The notes under the pieces are model-generated. The model saw nothing but the letters and a program-made list of their open reading frames with translations, did no database searches and was not told where the DNA came from. From a bacterium (GTDB lineage Bacteria > Arandabacterota > Arandabacteria > Arandabacterales > Arandabacteraceae): a stretch of DNA of 64,000 nucleotides. Every line of letters starts with the position of its first letter. Positions within the stretch are counted from its first letter, which is position 1. The translations under genes were made by a program, and so were the position numbers. This document shows positions 708 to 47,750 of the stretch, piece after piece. Location: contig JAOZOU010000003.1 in assembly GCA_029933125.1 (NCBI GenBank), positions 186,001 to 250,000 on the forward strand. The letters are read 5' to 3'.

Positions 708-821
708 TTCATTTGAGTGTGATCGGTTGTCGGTCTTCCTCCGGTGCACTCGGTCAAGTTCAACTGACGTGTGGTCGGACCGAGGTGAGGAGGAAAAATC
801 GAGAGAAAGGGGGCTGTCAGA

Positions 822-1040
822 ATGGCACGTACAGTCAGGAGAAAGGCAACCAAGAAGAAGGTGACCAAGAAGAAGACAACAAAGAAGAAGGCAACCAAGA
901 AGACAGCAAAGAAGAAGACCACCAAGAAGAGAACAACCAAGAAGAAGACGACCAAGAAGAAGACAACAAAGAAGAAGACAACCAAGAAGAAGACGACCAA
1001 GAAAAAGACAACCAAGAGAAAGACCACACGCAGGAAATAG
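822..1040 (+). CDS. Lysine-rich histone H1-like / KTKKK-repeat protein
   Basis: A 72-residue, extremely basic protein made almost only of Lys, Thr and Arg. From about residue 9 it is a run of pentads of the form KKKTT, and at DNA level it is an imperfect 15-base tandem repeat. It resembles the C-terminal tail of eukaryotic H1 and bacterial H1-like proteins (Hc1, BpH1, AlgP-type repeats), which bind DNA or RNA without a fixed fold; nucleoid binding is inferred. The start ATG follows an AAAGGGGG ribosome site. Strong support for a real gene is its own promoter upstream and a perfect intrinsic terminator eight bases after the stop. The other open frames across this stretch on both strands are by-products of the repeat. 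Repeat number may vary between strains. Confidence 0.8.
   Translation: MARTVRRKATKKKVTKKKTTKKKATKKTAKKKTTKKRTTKKKTTKKKTTKKKTTKKKTTKKKTTKRKTTRRK
834..1029 (+). repeat. Imperfect 15-bp tandem repeat inside the lysine-rich gene
   Basis: Units of roughly AAGAAGACNACCAAG recur about thirteen times and encode KKKTT-type pentads. The period is a multiple of three, so unit gain or loss keeps the frame open. Not a CRISPR: there are no spacers. Confidence 0.8.
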
Positions 1041-34353: not shown

Positions 34354-34403
34354 CTATGCAGACGTCTTTGAACAGCGCCAATGTGTTTGCCTGGAGGGCT
34401 GTC

Positions 34404-35516
34404 ATGAAAAAGGATCTGCTTAAGAAGACAAGAAGAGACCTCCTTGACCTTGCAAGGAAGCTTGGTGTCACAGGTCGTTCTAAGATGAAAAAGGCAGACC
34501 TGGCAGCTGCGATCGCAAAGGCGATGCGGAAGCCAAAGAAGGCTGGCAAGAAGATGGTGACTAGCAAAACGCCTGGCAAGCAACGTAAGGCTCGTGTACC
34601 TGTGAGGCAGACTACTCTGGTCAGGCGCAGCTGGCGGGAACAACAGGCCGTTGTGCAGCATGCCAAGTATGAGGTAAAGGTTGGCAAACTACCGCATGAG
34701 GTAAGAAAGGCTGCCGAGGCTCTTGAGCTTCCGAGCGCATATGGCGAAACGAGAATCGTGCTACTCGTCCGCGACCCTTACTGGGTTCATGTCTACTGGG
34801 AGGTTTCACGCGACGATCTGCTGAAAGCCAAGCAAAGCCTCAGGGAGGAGTGGCCGAAGGCGAAATCTGTTCTAAGGGTTTATGATGTTACAGATGTAGA
34901 TTTCGACGGTACCAATGCAAACTCTTACTTTGACATTGAGATCTCAGGTGGTGCAACAAATTGGTACATAAACACTGGAGTGCCCAACAGAACCTATTGT
35001 GTGGACATAGGTCTAAAAACACCCACTGGCAGATTCCTACCCCTTGCGAGGTCAAACAGGGCGACCACACCTCGGGACGCACCATCAGAGGTAACTGATG
35101 TGGAGTGGATGGTACCCGATTGGGAATTCGAACGTATATATGCTCTCTCAGGAGGCTTGCAATACGGAATGGGTTCAGCTGAGCTCGTTCAGCTGGTGCA
35201 GAAGGCGCTCGGGGGAGAGGTCAGCTCAGGAGCACCGGCAAGCTTTGGGGTATCAAGTATCGTCGGTGAACGCCGAGGGCGTGGATTCTGGTTCAGACTC
35301 GGAACGGAACTCATTGTATATGGTGCGACGCAACCCGATGCGAAGGTTACCTTGCAAGGTAGGCCTGTGCATCTGAGACAGGATGGGACATTTACGGCGA
35401 GATTCGAACTCCCTGATGGTAAGCAGGTTATCCCTGCAATTGCTGAATCTGCAGATGGTTCTGAGAGAATTGAGATCACGCCGACTGTGACAAAGAAGAC
35501 ACGGCGCAAGGGTTAG
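34404..35516 (+). CDS. DUF4912 protein with SAP/Rho-N-like lysine-rich N-terminus
   Basis: A 370-residue protein in three parts. Residues 1-40 (LLKKTRRDLLDLARKLGVTG and on to AAAIAKAM) look like a SAP or Rho-N-terminal helix-extended-helix, a DNA or RNA binding motif. Residues 40-80 are a Lys/Arg-rich linker. The rest is the DUF4912 domain, with YGETRIVLLVRDPYWVHVYWE (residues about 126-146; split in the sequence by no gap), YFDIEISGGATNWYI and the C-terminal GTELIVYGATQPDA part. DUF4912 has been noted beside GH57 branching enzymes, as here, and may bind glycan. ATG 34404 follows CTGGAGGG; the open ATG 34356 overlaps the promoter -10. It is followed 18 bases later by the GH57 gene. Confidence 0.85.
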   Translation: MKKDLLKKTRRDLLDLARKLGVTGRSKMKKADLAAAIAKAMRKPKKAGKKMVTSKTPGKQRKARVPVRQTTLVRRSWREQQAVVQHAKYEVKVGKLPHEVRKAAEALELPSAYGETRIVLLVRDPYWVHVYWEVSRDDLLKAKQSLREEWPKAKSVLRVYDVTDVDFDGTNANSYFDIEISGGATNWYINTGVPNRTYCVDIGLKTPTGRFLPLARSNRATTPRDAPSEVTDVEWMVPDWEFERIYALSGGLQYGMGSAELVQLVQKALGGEVSSGAPASFGVSSIVGERRGRGFWFRLGTELIVYGATQPDAKVTLQGRPVHLRQDGTFTARFELPDGKQVIPAIAESADGSERIEITPTVTKKTRRKG

Positions 35517-35534
35517 TACAGACTAGGTGGACAC

Positions 35535-37175
35535 TTGAAGCAAACGACCAAGGGTTATCTTGCAATAATACTCCATTCTCACCTGCCATTTGTGCGACAT
35601 CCCGAATACGAAGAATCTCTTGAGGAGGACTGGCTCTTCCAGGCCATAACGGAAACCTACATTCCCCTGCTTACAATGCTGGAGAGGCTTGAGAATGATG
35701 GTGTCCCTTATCGGATCACTATTTCCTTAAGCCCAACACTTGTTGCCATGCTCAATGATTGGCTACTTCAGGAGCGCTATGTAAAACGGCTCGAGAAGCT
35801 GAGCGAACTTGCTGCAAAGGAGGTCGAACGCACAAGGTGGGATGAGCGTTTCAATAGATTAGCCCTCATGTATCACTGGATTTTCAACACGACCAAAAGG
35901 CTTTATACCGATACTTACAAGCGTGACCTCGTTTCAGCTTTCCGCAAACTCGCAGAAGGGGGCAATGTTGAGCTCATAACGTGTGCTGCTACACACGGCT
36001 ACCTTCCGTTAATGTCGATAAACCCAAATGCGGTTCGTGCTCAAATTGAAATTGCTTGTGAATATCACGAACGCAACTTTGGGAAAAGACCTCAAGGCAT
36101 CTGGCTTCCTGAATGCGCCTATGAGCCTGGCCTTGATGCCATTCTTAAGGCTTGCGGTCTCAGGTACTTCTTCGTTGACACCCATGGCCTCCTTAATGCA
36201 ACACCAAGACCGCGCTATGGAGTATTCGCGCCGATTTACTGCCCAACAGGTGTGGCTGCTTTTGGGAGAGATATGGAGTCATCCCGGCAGGTGTGGAGTG
36301 CCCATGAGGGCTATCCTGGTGACTGGTACTATCGCGACTTTTATCGCGACATAGGCTTCGATCTCGACTATGACTATGTCAGACCATACCTTCACGGCGG
36401 CGTTTCGCGTGTCTTCACGGGTATAAAGTATTATAGAATCACAGGTCCAGGTGAAAAGCAGCCCTATGATCCTCATGCTGCTCTGCTTCGAGCTGAAGTT
36501 CATGCAGGGAATTTCATGTTCAATCGTGAGAAACAGATAGAGTTTCTGAACGATTTTCTTGGAAGGAAGCCCATTGTAGTTGCTCCCTATGATGCTGAGC
36601 TCTTCGGGCACTGGTGGTTTGAAGGGCCCCAGTGGCTCGAGCTTGTCATGCGCAAGTCAGCTTATGATCAAAAGGTCTATTCGCTTGCAACACCTTCTGA
36701 GTACCTGAAGCTCCATCCAAGGTGTCAGGTAGCAACACCTTCGCTTTCAAGCTGGGGCTGGAAGGGCTACAATGAGGTTTGGTTAGACGGCTCTAATGAC
36801 TGGCTTTACAAGCACTTACATTGGTCAGCTGATAAAATGGTTGAGATAGCCAGAATGGGGGATTGGGGTAATGCTGTGAAGGGTAGAGCTCTCAGGCAGG
36901 CAGCTCGCGAACTTCTACTTGCGCAGGCGAGTGACTGGGCTTTTATTATGAAAACAGCGACCGCAGTTGCATATGCTGTAAGAAGAACGCGTGAGCATAT
37001 TGCAAACTTCATAAGGCTATACGAAGATATAGTGCATGATTCTATTGACATAGAATGGCTCAGCAGGTTAGAAAGTAAGGATAATATTTTTCCCGAGCTA
37101 AACTATGCTGTCTATGCTGAAAGCGATAACGCGCTAGCTGGCTCAAGTGGCGGTCTGCCAGTTTCAAAGAAGTAA
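35535..37175 (+). CDS. GH57 1,4-alpha-glucan branching enzyme (DUF1957)
   Basis: A 546-residue enzyme of the GH57/DUF1957 branching type, which transfers alpha-1,4 glucan segments to form alpha-1,6 branches in glycogen. It has ILHSHLPFVRHPE at the N-terminus, ITCAATHGYLP, the nucleophile Glu193 in WLPECAYEPG and the acid Asp353 in YDAELFGHWW, which coincides with the position in the Thermus enzyme. The C-terminal DUF1957 helical part follows, with SSWGWKGYNEVWLDGSNDW. The TTG start has AGGTGG four bases upstream. It is in an operon with DUF4912, and the activase gene starts 14 bases after it, perhaps on the same transcript. Confidence 0.9.
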   Translation: MKQTTKGYLAIILHSHLPFVRHPEYEESLEEDWLFQAITETYIPLLTMLERLENDGVPYRITISLSPTLVAMLNDWLLQERYVKRLEKLSELAAKEVERTRWDERFNRLALMYHWIFNTTKRLYTDTYKRDLVSAFRKLAEGGNVELITCAATHGYLPLMSINPNAVRAQIEIACEYHERNFGKRPQGIWLPECAYEPGLDAILKACGLRYFFVDTHGLLNATPRPRYGVFAPIYCPTGVAAFGRDMESSRQVWSAHEGYPGDWYYRDFYRDIGFDLDYDYVRPYLHGGVSRVFTGIKYYRITGPGEKQPYDPHAALLRAEVHAGNFMFNREKQIEFLNDFLGRKPIVVAPYDAELFGHWWFEGPQWLELVMRKSAYDQKVYSLATPSEYLKLHPRCQVATPSLSSWGWKGYNEVWLDGSNDWLYKHLHWSADKMVEIARMGDWGNAVKGRALRQAARELLLAQASDWAFIMKTATAVAYAVRRTREHIANFIRLYEDIVHDSIDIEWLSRLESKDNIFPELNYAVYAESDNALAGSSGGLPVSKK

Positions 37176-43080: not shown

Positions 43081-43359
43081 GCTTAACAACCTTTTATCCA
43101 TATAGGTTCTTCGGCTCATCTACAATCGAGGTTGAGACTGGTTTTCCAAGATAGGTGCACTCCCAGAAAACCGGATTAGGAATCAAGAGATTTGCTACGG
43201 CGGCGCAATTGCAGATTGCACGAATTGTTTTCCAAATGCAATCCCGGGGTAAAACCTGAAGCCTGATTTTGGCCTAAAATGCAAGACTATCATGCATTAT
43301 TCGGTGCCCGTGCGTGGCATACGACTTGCAAGTCGCAGAGTGCGGGGAGGAGTTTGGAA
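43081..43359 (+). other. Intergenic stretch before the GalT-like gene
   Basis: About 280 bases without a supported gene. An ATG-initiated frame from 43279 joins the GalT-like gene but its first 27 codons have no family match and no ribosome site. I see no convincing promoter or terminator; several GCAATTGC-like and TGCAAT words occur near 43207-43245 without proper spacing. Confidence 0.5.
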
Positions 43360-44319
43360 TTGACCGAGTTGAGGAGACACCCCTTTATTGGGGAGTGGGT
43401 TATCATCTGTCCTGAGAAGCAAATCGCACTAAGCGATGGGGCGAGCGATGGCTGTGGATATTGTTCTTCCAGCGAATCCGAAGATGGTTTTGGCGAAGGT
43501 GCTCTTGGGAAGGGTGCTTTAAGAATAGTCCCCGCCTCGCCGCCCCTTTTCAATAAGCACTATGAGCTTGAGAAGATGCCGGCTGGGATTTGCGACGCCA
43601 TGAAGCCTGCTGGAGTTCACGAAGTCCTTATTGACAGTCCCAGTCATGAGATAGCTTTTGAGGATCTTTCCGAGATTCAAGCGCTTAAGATCCTCAAGAT
43701 TCTTCAAGGTCGCCTTACCGATCTTAGCGAAGATCAGCGCCTGAAATATACATTCGTCTTCAAGGTGCACAAGTCCAAGCCCCATGCAAGTCATTCGTGC
43801 TGGCAGATTGTTGGTACACCCTTCATCCCTGCCCCTATCAAACAGGAACTTAAGCGATCCCGCTACTACTACGGATACAAGGAAAGGTGTCTACTCTGTG
43901 ACTACATCAAAGAAGAGATCTCCGAGGGTGAAAGAATAGTCATCAATGAAGCCTCCGTAGTTGCACTTGCGCCCTACGCTTCGCGTTTCCCTTACGAGGT
44001 CTGGCTCTTGCCCAGGAGTCATTGCGCTGATTTCCGTCTTGCGGAGGATGATGAGATTCTTGGCGTTGGCAAATCCTTAAGATCCCTTCTCAACGCACTT
44101 CGATATATCAACGGCACATATGGCTATATCATAGGTCTCCACACTGCTCCCTATGCCCGTGAAAGTGATGCCTGGAAGACCCTTGAGCTTGACTATCACT
44201 GGCACTTTGAGATAAGACCCATGGTAGATCCCATAAATGGGTTGAGTGCGAGCGGTGGATTTCATCTCAATCCCATCTCACCTGAGCATGCTGCCAGTCG
44301 ACTAAGAGAGCTCATGTAG
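43360..44319 (+). CDS. Galactose-1-phosphate uridylyltransferase-like protein with altered active site
   Basis: A 319-residue HIT-superfamily protein. The start TTG 43360 (or 43354) follows GGGGAGGAG and gives LTELRRHPFIGEWVIICPEKQ-like residues as in GalT. CGYC near residue 25 and YKERCLLCDYI (about 175) are zinc-type motifs, and DYHWHFEIRP near the end matches the C-terminal half. The GalT active site His-Pro-His-x-Gln reads His-Ser-Cys-Trp-Gln here (codons 43792-43806): the position of the nucleophilic His is Cys. The zinc-binding first His and the Gln remain. It may be an adenylyl- or uridylyltransferase with changed chemistry, or inactive; calling it GalT would be unsafe. No galK or galE is near. 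Confidence 0.75.
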   Translation: MTELRRHPFIGEWVIICPEKQIALSDGASDGCGYCSSSESEDGFGEGALGKGALRIVPASPPLFNKHYELEKMPAGICDAMKPAGVHEVLIDSPSHEIAFEDLSEIQALKILKILQGRLTDLSEDQRLKYTFVFKVHKSKPHASHSCWQIVGTPFIPAPIKQELKRSRYYYGYKERCLLCDYIKEEISEGERIVINEASVVALAPYASRFPYEVWLLPRSHCADFRLAEDDEILGVGKSLRSLLNALRYINGTYGYIIGLHTAPYARESDAWKTLELDYHWHFEIRPMVDPINGLSASGGFHLNPISPEHAASRLRELM

Positions 44320-44420: not shown

Positions 44421-44921
44421 ATGGAAGATGTTAGTAAAGCAACAAGTGAATTTGCTGAATCCGTTGCCATAGTTACAGCTAAACGCGGAGACAAGGTCAA
44501 CGCAATGACAGCAGCCTGGACGGTGCCAGTCTCTCATAGGCCAGCTCTCGTGGTTGTTCATATAGCTCCGCAGCGTTTCACTCACGATATGATTGTCGAG
44601 AGTAAGGAATTTGGGCTGAGCATCCTGGCTGATGATCAGGTGGATCTCTCACAGCATGCAGGTACACTGAGCGGGCGCAAGCTTGATAAGTTTGCTTCGG
44701 GGATTCTCAAGTCCAAACAATCAAAAGTAATAGAGGCGCCGGTACTTGAAGGCTGCGCAGCCACTATGGAATGTAAGCTTGAGAAGGCGATATCCATGGG
44801 TGACCATACCATCTTTGTTGGTAGGGTTGTTGCTCTTGAGAAGGATCCTGATAAGAAACCCTTAATCCTTCACAGGGGCGTTTACTACAAGCTTGGCGAG
44901 ACAGTTGGAAGATATTACTAG
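44421..44921 (+). CDS. Flavin reductase-like FMN-binding protein
   Basis: A 166-residue split-barrel protein of the flavin reductase family (FMN-binding, dimeric). Recognised from VAIVTAKRGDKVNAMTAAWTVPVSHRPALV, of which residues 15-22 (VAIVTAKR) and 27-33 (NAMTAAW) bind FMN, from FGLSILADDQ, and from HTIFVGRVVALE followed by the HRGVYYKLGE end. TAAGGAGGG lies seven bases before the ATG. It has its own promoter. The partner oxidoreductase is unknown; in anaerobes such proteins often serve flavin or oxygen/NO detoxification. Confidence 0.85.
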   Translation: MEDVSKATSEFAESVAIVTAKRGDKVNAMTAAWTVPVSHRPALVVVHIAPQRFTHDMIVESKEFGLSILADDQVDLSQHAGTLSGRKLDKFASGILKSKQSKVIEAPVLEGCAATMECKLEKAISMGDHTIFVGRVVALEKDPDKKPLILHRGVYYKLGETVGRYY

Positions 44922-45013: not shown

Positions 45014-46099
45014 ATGCGAACAATTGCGATCGCCAATCAAAAGGGCGGTTGTGGTAAGACAACGACAGCAATAAATCTTTCAGCCTGTCTGACTCTTAGG
45101 AAACGAAAGGTGCTTCTCATAGATCTTGATCCTCAGGCTCATGCAACTGCAGGAGTAGGTATAGATGTGAATCGAATTGAGCACAGCATCTACGACGTAT
45201 TGCTTGATGCTTACCCTCTGGAGAAAATAGTTCAGAGAATTGAGCCTGGCTTTGATATAGCCCCATCAACCATTCTTGTGAGCGCTCTTGAGCAGAAACT
45301 TGCTGGACAGGATGGGAGGGAAAAGAAGCTAACGGAAGCCCTTCATCGTCTTGAGGGTGATTATGATTATGTGATTGTCGATTGCCCACCAAGCATTGGT
45401 CTCCTAACCTTCAATGCGCTTTGTGCGTGCAATGAGGCAATCATCCCTATTGAAAGTGGTTTCTTTTCGCTCTGGGGGGTTGGGCGTTTGCTAGATATGG
45501 TGGAGCTCGTGCGTGAAGAGCTTGGGCACGAGGTCAGACTCAAGGTTCTTTGCACAATGTTTGATGGTAGGTCAAGATTTTCGAGTGAGATAGTGGAAGA
45601 TGTGCGCAGACATTTCAGACATCGCACGTTTTCGACAGTGATCCACATGAATGTGAAACTCAGGGAAGCATCTAGCTACGGCTTACCAATCACGGAGTAT
45701 GATCGAAGGTCGCGAGGGTTCAGGGAGTATCTTGAGCTTGCTCGTGAGGTTGTTGGTGATGAAGACGAGGTGGAAATTGAGGAAACTGTGGAGAGATCAT
45801 CAGGTGAGTCTCACAAGGAAGATTATGGTCCGGTGAGGGTTCCAGGTGGTATTCTTTTCAAGGTGCATGCACCCGAGGCAAGGAGAGTACAACTTGTTGG
45901 AGATTTCACCTCCTGGCAGGAACCCATAGATCTCAATGATGATGATGAGGATGGCATATGGATAACAATTAAGCGTCTGGATCCTGGGACGTATCAGTAC
46001 AAGTTCATAGTCGACGGTAGGTGGCAACCCGATCCCAGCAATCCTTTGGACACAGATGATGCTCATGGTGGAAGGAATTCTGTCGTGATCGTGGAGTAA
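45014..46099 (+). CDS. ParA-family ATPase fused to a CBM48/AMPK-beta-type glycogen-binding domain
   Basis: A 361-residue protein. Residues 1-250 are a complete ParA/Soj ATPase: deviant Walker [14 protein letters not shown], Walker A' LIDLDPQAH, Walker B VIVDCPPS and the conserved [12 protein letters not shown] and EASSYGLPI segments. After an acidic linker (about 248-272) residues 274-361 form a CBM48 domain, starting [17 protein letters not shown]. Glycogen-contact residues of the AMPK beta subunit have counterparts: Trp in DFTSW, Lys in YQYKFIVDG, Trp in GRWQPDP and Asn in GGRNSVV. The pairing suggests an ATPase that binds the nucleoid and an alpha-glucan. GGAGG lies ten bases before the ATG. 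It is the first of three tightly linked genes; no ParB or parS is seen. Confidence 0.9.
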
Positions 46100-46101
46100 T
46101 T

Positions 46102-46962
46102 ATGAAGCATGACGGTGCCAAGACTGAGAGAGTCAAGCGATTGGGTAGGGGACTTGCGGATGTTTCCCATGTCTTTCTCTCAGGTACATCAGACGAGCGT
46201 GCTGACGCAGCTGAGCCTTCTGATTTTTGGCTACCTGAAAGAAGGCTTATAGCAATCACATCTGGCAAAGGAGTAAGGGGCAAGACCCTCGTTGCCTTTG
46301 GGCTTGCCCATGGGCTTGCCGAGAAAGGTAGGCGAGTTGCATTATTTACCGATGACGAAGCGCTGCTCTCCGATGCCAAGCTAAGTCCGCCTGCCGGGGG
46401 CGAGCCCAAAGGCAAGGGACCTCATTCACTGAGCATCTTCGAGCTTAGCCCGCTACTCACAGTGCTTGAAGATGGAGTTGACGTGAACCAGCTCGAGCGT
46501 GCTGCCGACGGATACGACGTTGTGGTTGTTGAAGTTACGCCTCAGATATCAAGTGAAACTTTAATCTGGAAACTCGCGCGCCTCATCATCGTAATTGCTG
46601 AACCGGGTACCCGCCAGATGCAAGCAGCCTATGCTATGATAAAGCGTTTGGCAACATCGAGGGCAGGATGCAGAATTGGCCTTGTTGTGAATCTTGCAAG
46701 AGATTACGATGAAGCAGAGAGGTGCTTCAGGAAAATTTCACGCGCCTGTAGGGAATTCCTAAAGGTCAATGTTCGCAATTATGGATATGTTGCTTTAAGC
46801 GATGAGGTTGTGAGAGTTCTGGCAGGGGGCAAGCAGCCCAGCTATGTTTGGAGCAATCCTCTGATTGCTCGATGCTTTGAGTCGATTGTAAGAATCTATT
46901 TGATAGATGATAGAGCAGTTCGCAGGAGAAGAAAGGAGGTGAAACAAAAGTCGTGCGTATAG
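46102..46962 (+). CDS. Degenerate MinD/ParA-like ATPase with ParB-like N-terminal motif
   Basis: A 286-residue protein starting two bases after the ParA-CBM48 stop, with GGAG upstream. The N-terminus VKRLGRGLADVSHVFLSG is like the conserved first motif of ParB proteins, where it contacts ParA. From about residue 45 the chain follows the MinD/FlhG/ParA fold: RRLIAITSGKGVRGKTLVAFG has the P-loop form KGVRGKT (KGGxGKT expected), the second motif VALFTDDEA replaces DxDxxxP, and VVVVEVTPQ replaces Walker B DxP. IVIAEPGTRQMQAAYAMIK and IGLVVNLA match the later strands. ATP hydrolysis may be lost. The C-terminus is basic (RRRRKEVKQK). It overlaps the next gene by ten bases. Confidence 0.75.
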   Translation: MKHDGAKTERVKRLGRGLADVSHVFLSGTSDERADAAEPSDFWLPERRLIAITSGKGVRGKTLVAFGLAHGLAEKGRRVALFTDDEALLSDAKLSPPAGGEPKGKGPHSLSIFELSPLLTVLEDGVDVNQLERAADGYDVVVVEVTPQISSETLIWKLARLIIVIAEPGTRQMQAAYAMIKRLATSRAGCRIGLVVNLARDYDEAERCFRKISRACREFLKVNVRNYGYVALSDEVVRVLAGGKQPSYVWSNPLIARCFESIVRIYLIDDRAVRRRRKEVKQKSCV

Positions 46963-47750
46963 AAAAGAAAGCTATCGAAAGTGCTGAGGAGCTGAGCAGT
47001 CTTGTTCGTGAAGTACTCGAGGACGAAATCGAGGGTATGAAGGTTCTGAGCGAGGTCGAACCTCAAGGAGATGAAATAGAGATAGGAATGCTCATCGGGG
47101 ACAAGTCTGGAAGGTTGATGATTGTTGGTGCTAGGGAACACGATGGTGATAGCCTCGTATTGAGCTACGGCAGACATCTCGCCTGGTTCCGCAATGTAAG
47201 AGACACCCTTTCGAAAGAACACAGCAACTTCGACTGGGAACATGACCCCGGGATAATTCTCATGGCTGATCATTTCAGCCCACATGCCTTGTATCTCATT
47301 GCAATGCTGGGGGCAAATCCAAAGAAGTGCTTCTCAATTAAGTGTCTCGGAATGGGTTCAGAAAAGGGCCTTTTTGCTGAATCGCTAGCAGTACCTTCAG
47401 TTGCGCCTGTGGGCATTGAGGTTGGAAAGGTCGATCTTCTTACGAAGACCATTGATCGGGTTGTTACGCTGGCTTCTGATCTTTCAGTTTCAGCTTCATT
47501 TGGTTACGTAAGTGAGTCACTCGATTGGGTACCGGTCGCCAATATCAGGAAGCGCGGAAAGACCATTTGGGTTGAGTCAGGTCCTGGAAAGTGGTCAACT
47601 CTGAGAGTGGAGGACGAAGCGACCCTCGAGAGAGCAGTTGAGAGGGTTGAGGCAAGTTACAAAGAGGTTATGAAGACAAGGGGCGATAGTGCTAGTAGTC
47701 CCGAAGGGGAACTTTCAGAGGCTGAGCGAAAAACCCTCAAATGGGAATAG
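46953..47750 (+). CDS. Unknown protein, possible inactive PD-(D/E)XK (NucS-like) domain
   Basis: A 265-residue cytosolic protein starting at GTG 46953 with AGGAGGTGA upstream. Residues about 40-100 (EIEIGMLIGDKSGRLMIVGA, then SLVLSYGRHLAWFRNV) follow the layout of NucS/DUF91-type nucleases, where one expects D-x(n)-E-x-K; at those places I read Gly, Gly and Arg, so it would be a pseudo-nuclease. PGIILMADHFSPHALYLIAML resembles the next strand-helix of the same fold. Residues 185-240 may form a small separate domain, and the tail is acidic. The family is not firmly recognised. Its ten-base overlap with the MinD-like gene indicates a shared job in the ParA-CBM48 operon. Confidence 0.6.
   Translation: MRIEKKAIESAEELSSLVREVLEDEIEGMKVLSEVEPQGDEIEIGMLIGDKSGRLMIVGAREHDGDSLVLSYGRHLAWFRNVRDTLSKEHSNFDWEHDPGIILMADHFSPHALYLIAMLGANPKKCFSIKCLGMGSEKGLFAESLAVPSVAPVGIEVGKVDLLTKTIDRVVTLASDLSVSASFGYVSESLDWVPVANIRKRGKTIWVESGPGKWSTLRVEDEATLERAVERVEASYKEVMKTRGDSASSPEGELSEAERKTLKWE

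Follow-up and report, generated by a model that had tools for sequence, protein, structure and literature searches.

A widespread ParA-type ATPase with a C-terminal CBM48 domain may place or sense a stored sugar polymer in bacteria

Introduction

ATPases of the ParA/MinD family position chromosomes, plasmids, carboxysomes, flagella and chemosensory arrays in bacteria. To our knowledge, McdA has no carbohydrate-binding domain, and BcsQ, the family member of cellulose synthesis, has no CBM. In the characterised systems an N-terminal peptide joins the partner to the ATPase while the cargo-binding bodies of the partners are unrelated, and it is the partner protein, not the ATPase, that holds the cargo (PMC10241942). 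The cargo of McdA-McdB, PpfA/ParC and PomZ is not DNA (PMC10241942). There is reason to distribute glycogen actively: E. coli csrA mutants accumulate it in a heap at the old pole and lose the chromosome, presumably through exclusion (PMC4836754).

Here we describe a ParA ATPase fused to a CBM48 domain, encoded in a 64,000-nucleotide stretch of a bacterial genome (the window). Like McdA-McdB, PpfA/ParC and PomZ, it is a chromosomal ParA-type ATPase with a partner that is expected to bind by its N-terminus (PMC10241942); in contrast to theirs, its cargo is only proposed, and the partners are unrelated. The literature searched, mostly papers available without subscription, described neither a ParA with CBM48 nor a ParA system for glycogen, nor any ParA/MinD member whose ligand is a storage polysaccharide inside the cell, in agreement with a first-pass annotation of the window that knew of no ParA system for glycogen. 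What appears to be new is that a ParA subfamily combines a carbohydrate-binding domain with a partner tag of its own.

Results

The ParA-CBM48 gene (45014..46099, + strand) has an ATG start with GGAGG ahead of it, a good ribosome-binding site, and encodes a fusion ATPase of 361 residues, as judged from Pfam, PDB sequence search, an AlphaFold model and alignments of relatives. A ParA domain (residues 1-250; 45014..45763, +), recognised from the invariant columns of alignment A1 and by alignment with Bacillus Soj (L051), is followed by an acidic linker (about 250-271) and the CBM48 domain (about 272-361). Residues 1-173 match Pfam AAA_31 above the curated cut-off (E=5.9e-54), and residues 2-249 match ParA/Soj in the PDB sequence search with E values down to 3.5e-62. 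The AlphaFold model has a ParA fold at the N-terminus and a disordered linker (254-271, pLDDT<50). When the whole model was used as the Foldseek query, ParA/Soj came first (TMt 0.91).

The deviant Walker A motif with its signature lysine (residues 8-18) is invariant in the 12 relatives of alignment A1, and its form in the subfamily is KGGCGKT. The catalytic Asp region is DLDPQ (37-41) and the Walker B/DxPP motif is DCPPS (123-127); D37, D39, P40, Q41, D123, P125 and P126 are invariant in the same 12 relatives. Arg186 stands at the position of the DNA-binding Arg189 of Soj and is also invariant (alignment A1 and alignment with L051), and the second basic DNA-binding position, an Arg in Soj, is the Lys of NVKL. 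Thus, by Pfam AAA_31, the PDB matches and alignment A1, the Walker-type motifs are intact, and the earlier description of the protein as a complete ParA holds. The protein resembles chromosomal ParA/Soj in the deviant Walker A, the catalytic Asp region, DCPPS, the Arg at the DNA-binding position of Soj Arg189 and the ATPase fold, and differs from it in the KGGCGKT form, the C-terminal CBM48, its separate clade and its existence beside a housekeeping parAB, which lies elsewhere in the window's genome (L022). Between the ParA domain and the genome's own housekeeping ParA, sequence identity is 47%. At the C-terminus, where MinD has its amphipathic membrane-targeting helix, Pfam and the model place the CBM48 instead, and the MinD equivalog score is 56.3 against a cut-off of 212.9. 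Pfam CBP_BcsQ matches the protein (E=2e-14), and the score for NCBIfam BcsQ is 64.5 bits against a cut-off of 157.85. The likeness to BcsQ is that of a ParA/MinD family ATPase associated with a polysaccharide system.

The CBM48, or AMPK-beta-type glycogen-binding domain (45827..46099, +), was identified by Pfam and by a residue census of 58 fusion CBM rows. AMPK1_CBM matches residues 288-359 (E=5e-15) and CBM_48 matches residues 274-337 (E=1.3e-8), both above the curated cut-offs, and about residues 280-361 match LSF1 (E=1.1e-7), AMPK beta (E=4.7e-7) and SEX4/DSP4 in the PDB sequence search. AlphaFold models the C-terminus as a beta sandwich (pLDDT about 75-85). Because the top 50 Foldseek matches of the whole model contained no CBM, the assignment rests on sequence and secondary structure; the first-pass proposal of a CBM48 is upheld by Pfam, the PDB sequences and the modelled sandwich, and the fold search did not add to it. 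As in AMPK beta and in the plant glucan phosphatases SEX4/LSF1, the domain is of the AMPK type with W, K/R, W and N contacts. Unlike in those proteins, it sits on a ParA ATPase rather than on a kinase scaffold or a phosphatase, and the AMPK beta C-terminal domain is absent.

A second, diverged ParA-CBM48, here called type B, is encoded in the window's genome (G000:C76:43497-44546; L021:9477-10547, - strand) and also in relatives; a conserved 117-residue zinc-ribbon-like protein precedes it in L021, L025, L026 and L027.

All four contact residues claimed earlier are present in the window's protein as W301, K330, W337 and N355, which we take to be the equivalents of W100, K126, W133 and N150 of AMPK beta1. 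Among the 53 non-type-B CBM rows, which are about 43 distinct since ten loci were counted twice, the W301 and W337 positions are Trp in 53 of 53, 52 have a basic residue at the K330 position, and the N355 position is N in 39 and D in 14. Type B has lost W337 and N355 in the residue census; W337 is missing from all five type B domains, which retain the fold signature. Conservation of W337 elsewhere is therefore not demanded by the fold.

The full-length fusion was found in G001 (80% identity), G004 (71%), G003 (70%) and G002 (65%), in each case with a flavin reductase gene upstream and ORF2 (see below) downstream; in G006, and probably in G005, contig ends interrupt it. The flavin reductase (44421..44921, +; Pfam Flavin_Reduct, E=5.8e-41; gene order shared in L002-L006) lies directly upstream in the window's clade and outside the module in other phyla. 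A GalT-like hexose-1-phosphate uridylyltransferase (43279..44319, +) is upstream in several relatives and gives context only. A MerR-type regulator stands ahead of ParA in the Nitrospirota, Gammaproteobacteria and Myxococcales/Deltaproteobacteria loci (Pfam). In a scan of named genomes, carriers included Rokuibacteriota, Omnitrophota, Myxococcales, Deltaproteobacteria, Gemmatimonadales, Sedimentisphaerales, Thiogranum and other MAGs. Whole-length fusion matches occur in 88 of 145 Omnitrophota genomes (counted from listed rows), in 10 of 61 Nitrospirota genomes (four with a long linker) and in 5 of 94 from Gammaproteobacteria. None of the best 5000 plasmid records covers 80% of the query. Among phages, one of 193 records matches at least 80% of the query length.

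A phylogeny built from 70 ParA domains places all 39 fused ParAs in one clade (100/100), separate from the housekeeping ParAs. The sole non-fusion within the clade, L037 (Nitrospirae), keeps the operon and the tag without CBM48, and is most simply explained by loss of CBM48 from a former fusion; it had at first been taken as a fusion and was ruled out because it has no CBM48. It appears that ParA-CBM48 is a distinct ParA subfamily of single origin. Since the fusions span many groups and form one clade, these sequences point to an old and widespread subfamily rather than a single curiosity. The survey of homologues proposed in the first-pass annotation thus recovered the fusion in all close relatives searched and in several phyla, not in one assembly.

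ORF2 (46102..46962, +; 286 residues), which begins 2 nt past the stop of ParA-CBM48 (ORF1), is the partner candidate; it is kept downstream in relatives with enough sequence and was singled out by a motif census. This adjoining gene had been missed at first reading. ORF2 has a basic N-terminus, KRLGRGLADVSHVFLS, followed by a MinD/FlhG-like domain. Its start sequence, MKHDGAKTERVKRLGRGLADVSHVFLSG, and that of the ParB of the same genome, VARRALGKGLDALIP, have an LG[RK]GL peptide in common (KRLGRGLAD in ORF2, RRALGKGLDAL in ParB), so ORF2 appears to bear a basic N-terminal peptide of the ParA-activating LG[RK]GL type, as does ParB/Spo0J, the partner of Soj. Unlike ParB/Spo0J, it has an additional [VI][SA]HxFLS motif, and Pfam found no ParB CTPase or HTH domain in it, the matches being mainly of the MinD/CbiA type. 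ORF2 shares these CbiA/MinD-type fold matches with FlhG/MinD; it differs from FlhG/MinD by the N-terminal tag and by its ATP site, as members of the ORF2 family do not consistently keep the signature lysine of ParA/MinD ATPases, and several have lost the P-loop.

The tag (46102..46182, +), a ParB-like LGRGL followed by VSHVFLS, was surveyed at fusion and control loci. Its motif, [VI][SA]HxF[LI]S, occurs in some form at the N-terminus of the gene adjoining ParA-CBM48 in most fusion loci. Among 468 ORFs of fusion loci, 15 fit the strict pattern and 12 more the loose one, and all 27 are neighbours of ParA-CBM48; among 860 ORFs of control ParA loci there were 0 strict matches and 1 loose match. 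These counts are partly in-sample, because the pattern was derived from some of the counted data and widened once after missing the Nitrospirota ISHYFIS, and related loci do not count as independent. Only one occurrence of the tag in the window's genome could be called with any confidence. Its carriers are MinD-like proteins in most lineages. In L030 the tag lies directly ahead of an ORF3-type (NucS-like) domain, in L009/L111 on a Cys-containing protein, and in L008, L039 and L068 on proteins without a family. Many Omnitrophota have in this position a membrane protein that starts MDKKDIYEHLAKIYLD, a looser form of the tag, and that by visual inspection has a single transmembrane segment. From these sequences, the tag is probably a ParA-docking peptide. 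VSHVFLS/ISHFFLSR presumably resembles the membrane-binding N-terminus of MinE, which we take as a lead only.

ORF3 (46953..47750, +; 265 residues) overlaps the end of ORF2 and starts with GTG after GGAGG. It matches no Pfam family and has a conserved C-terminal LSxxE tail (alignment A3). From AlphaFold, Foldseek and alignment A3, a NucS/EndoMS-like N-terminal domain is predicted: the model has the alpha-beta-beta-beta-alpha-beta order of PD-(D/E)XK nucleases, and Foldseek ranks EndoMS/NucS highest (E=1.8e-3, probability 1.00), but with a TM of only 0.28-0.32. By inspection, the catalytic E-x-K was not seen at the expected place in 11 aligned members, and ORF3 is therefore probably not a nuclease. 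The only PDB profile match, a designed repeat protein, was discarded.

With regard to the ligand, 8 of the 9 Omnitrophota genomes that were tested encode a GH57 alpha-glucan enzyme some 2.2 kb upstream of the fusion, with only the tagged membrane protein in between, and strong GH57 genes number just 2-3 per genome there. Because the Omnitrophota share ancestry, this is one conserved arrangement and not eight independent events. Strong matches to glycogen synthase (E<1e-50) are present in 17 of 23 module-carrying genomes, a count that says little because 12 of 14 control genomes have the family too; the L037 genome has glycogen synthase although its ParA is without CBM48. In no genome with comparable coordinates does glycogen synthase adjoin the fusion. 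G066 (a Deltaproteobacteria MAG of 5.4 Mb), whose fusion has the contact residues W/R/W/N, gave no match to GT5 glycogen synthase, GH57 or GH13, and G065 (Myxococcales) gave no GH13, a GH57 fragment below the threshold and a GT5 match that was only partial; both are large assemblies, and the absences hold for the assembled sequence. At the level of sequence, the glucan link for ParA-CBM48 is supported, not proven.

The GH57 branching enzyme of the window (35535-37175) was rejected as evidence because it was not seen in the 14.6-kb locus of G004 (L113). It is adjoined, within 34356-37175, by a Rho_N plus DUF4912 protein that weakly matches glucodextranase-B, and carries BE_C. Elsewhere in the same genome, L028 (G000:C76:288000-302000) holds sugar ABC transporter genes, several CBM48 proteins and a CBM48-GH57 fusion of 1146 residues, and looks like an alpha-glucan uptake locus. 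Six Omnitrophota loci (L149, L153, L154, L156, L160 and L161) have, just downstream of ParA-CBM48, a small membrane protein and a Lys-rich protein with a THYFPHVRAAVIKLK domain at its end, and also an outer-membrane porin-like gene upstream of GH57.

Discussion

We propose, with a probability of roughly 0.4, that ParA-CBM48 is a nucleoid-binding positioning module with an operon-encoded partner that distributes glycogen by way of its CBM48. In this scheme an ATP-bound dimer would sit on, or coat, the nucleoid, and the tag of the partner (basic LGRGL, then [VI][SA]HxFLS) would bind this dimer, stimulate it to hydrolyse ATP and so release it, as ParB, McdB and MinE do with their own ATPases. The two CBM48 tails of each dimer would bind alpha-1,4-glucan, and glycogen, or an enzyme complex on glycogen, would be tethered to the moving ATPase. 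The outcome would be glucan, or glucan-bound enzymes, spread over the nucleoid and not heaped at a pole. The sequences show the fusion, the single clade, the operon, the tag, the conserved contact residues and the GH57 synteny of the Omnitrophota; we infer the ATPase cycling, the function of the tag, the glucan binding and glycogen as the cargo. Positioning is favoured by the intact ParA motifs, the Arg at the DNA-binding position, the single clade (100/100) and a tag that is confined to the partner across phyla and stands on unrelated bodies (MinD-like, NucS-like, in looser form single-pass membrane proteins, and probably others). That the machine is dedicated to a storage polysaccharide, spreading glycogen or glycogen-bound enzymes so that both daughters inherit the reserve, is a more tentative and rather doubtful extension.

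The cargo, or control, role suggested for glycogen in the first-pass annotation is borne out in part: the invariant Trp residues and the Omnitrophota GH57 gene speak for it, while the enzyme-poor G065 and G066 and the paralogues without contact residues speak against it. Since the partner holds the cargo in known ParA systems (PMC10241942), a CBM48 on ParA itself does not alone make glycogen the cargo. With its membrane location, the partner of many Omnitrophota would fit a cargo in the envelope better than a granule, and a type B that kept the fold and lost the contacts counts against glycogen as cargo, as does an L037 operon with the tag and without CBM48. Glycogen as cargo is plausible; glucan as a signal fits nearly as well, and the GH57 neighbour fits both.

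If glucan is a signal, CBM48 would bind glycogen or maltodextrin and change the ParA cycle, and another cargo, such as a partner-bound complex or the membrane assembly of the Omnitrophota, would be positioned by carbon status; we regard this as somewhat unlikely in itself. AMPK offers a precedent, as the CBM of AMPK beta acts on AMPK. The position of CBM48 on the ATPase and not on the partner, a tag on unrelated partners, a MerR-type regulator that is often ahead of ParA and the invariant contact residues all agree with a signal, and the Omnitrophota membrane partner, together with the rule that the partner holds the cargo, favours signal over cargo. On the other hand, no allosteric path is visible in the model because the linker is disordered, and G065 and G066 carry the fusion with few or no glycogen enzymes. 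Those same two genomes, the second with no alpha-glucan enzyme detected and the first with almost none, are what one would expect if the CBM48 were an E-set/Ig-like domain for protein-protein contact, or for another saccharide (e.g. envelope polysaccharide precursors), rather than for alpha-glucan. The persistence in carriers of type B without contact residues and the membrane partner in Omnitrophota point the same way, whereas the GH57 synteny and the surface Trp equivalent to W133 of AMPK, invariant in the 53 non-type-B rows (about 43 distinct) yet dispensable in type B, make a non-glucan ligand unlikely. Little can be said for an ordinary chromosome or plasmid partition ParA with a chance extra domain. 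Its identity of 47% to the housekeeping ParA and an ORF2 N-terminus resembling the LGKGL of ParB would agree with such a protein, but the separate clade, the housekeeping parAB elsewhere (L022), the partner without a ParB domain and the absence from the best 5000 plasmid records already render it very improbable. A chimeric contig, raised as a possible refutation at first reading, or a gene-calling artefact is refuted, as independent genomes repeat the fusion and its gene order and the survey extends across phyla; nothing was found for it.

Taken together, these sequences suggest that ParA-CBM48 may serve to position or sense a stored sugar polymer. If glucan is bound, there would be a direct physical link between an ATPase of spatial organisation and carbon storage, and the sharing of glycogen between daughter cells would become testable. 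Independent of glycogen, the tag is a candidate for a short peptide that recruits unrelated proteins to one type of ParA, and would be useful for assigning partners to 'orphan' ParAs. As a separate observation, the window also encodes, at about 760-1040 (+), a Lys/Thr-rich repeat (KKTTKKKTTKKK) that resembles a histone H1-like tail.
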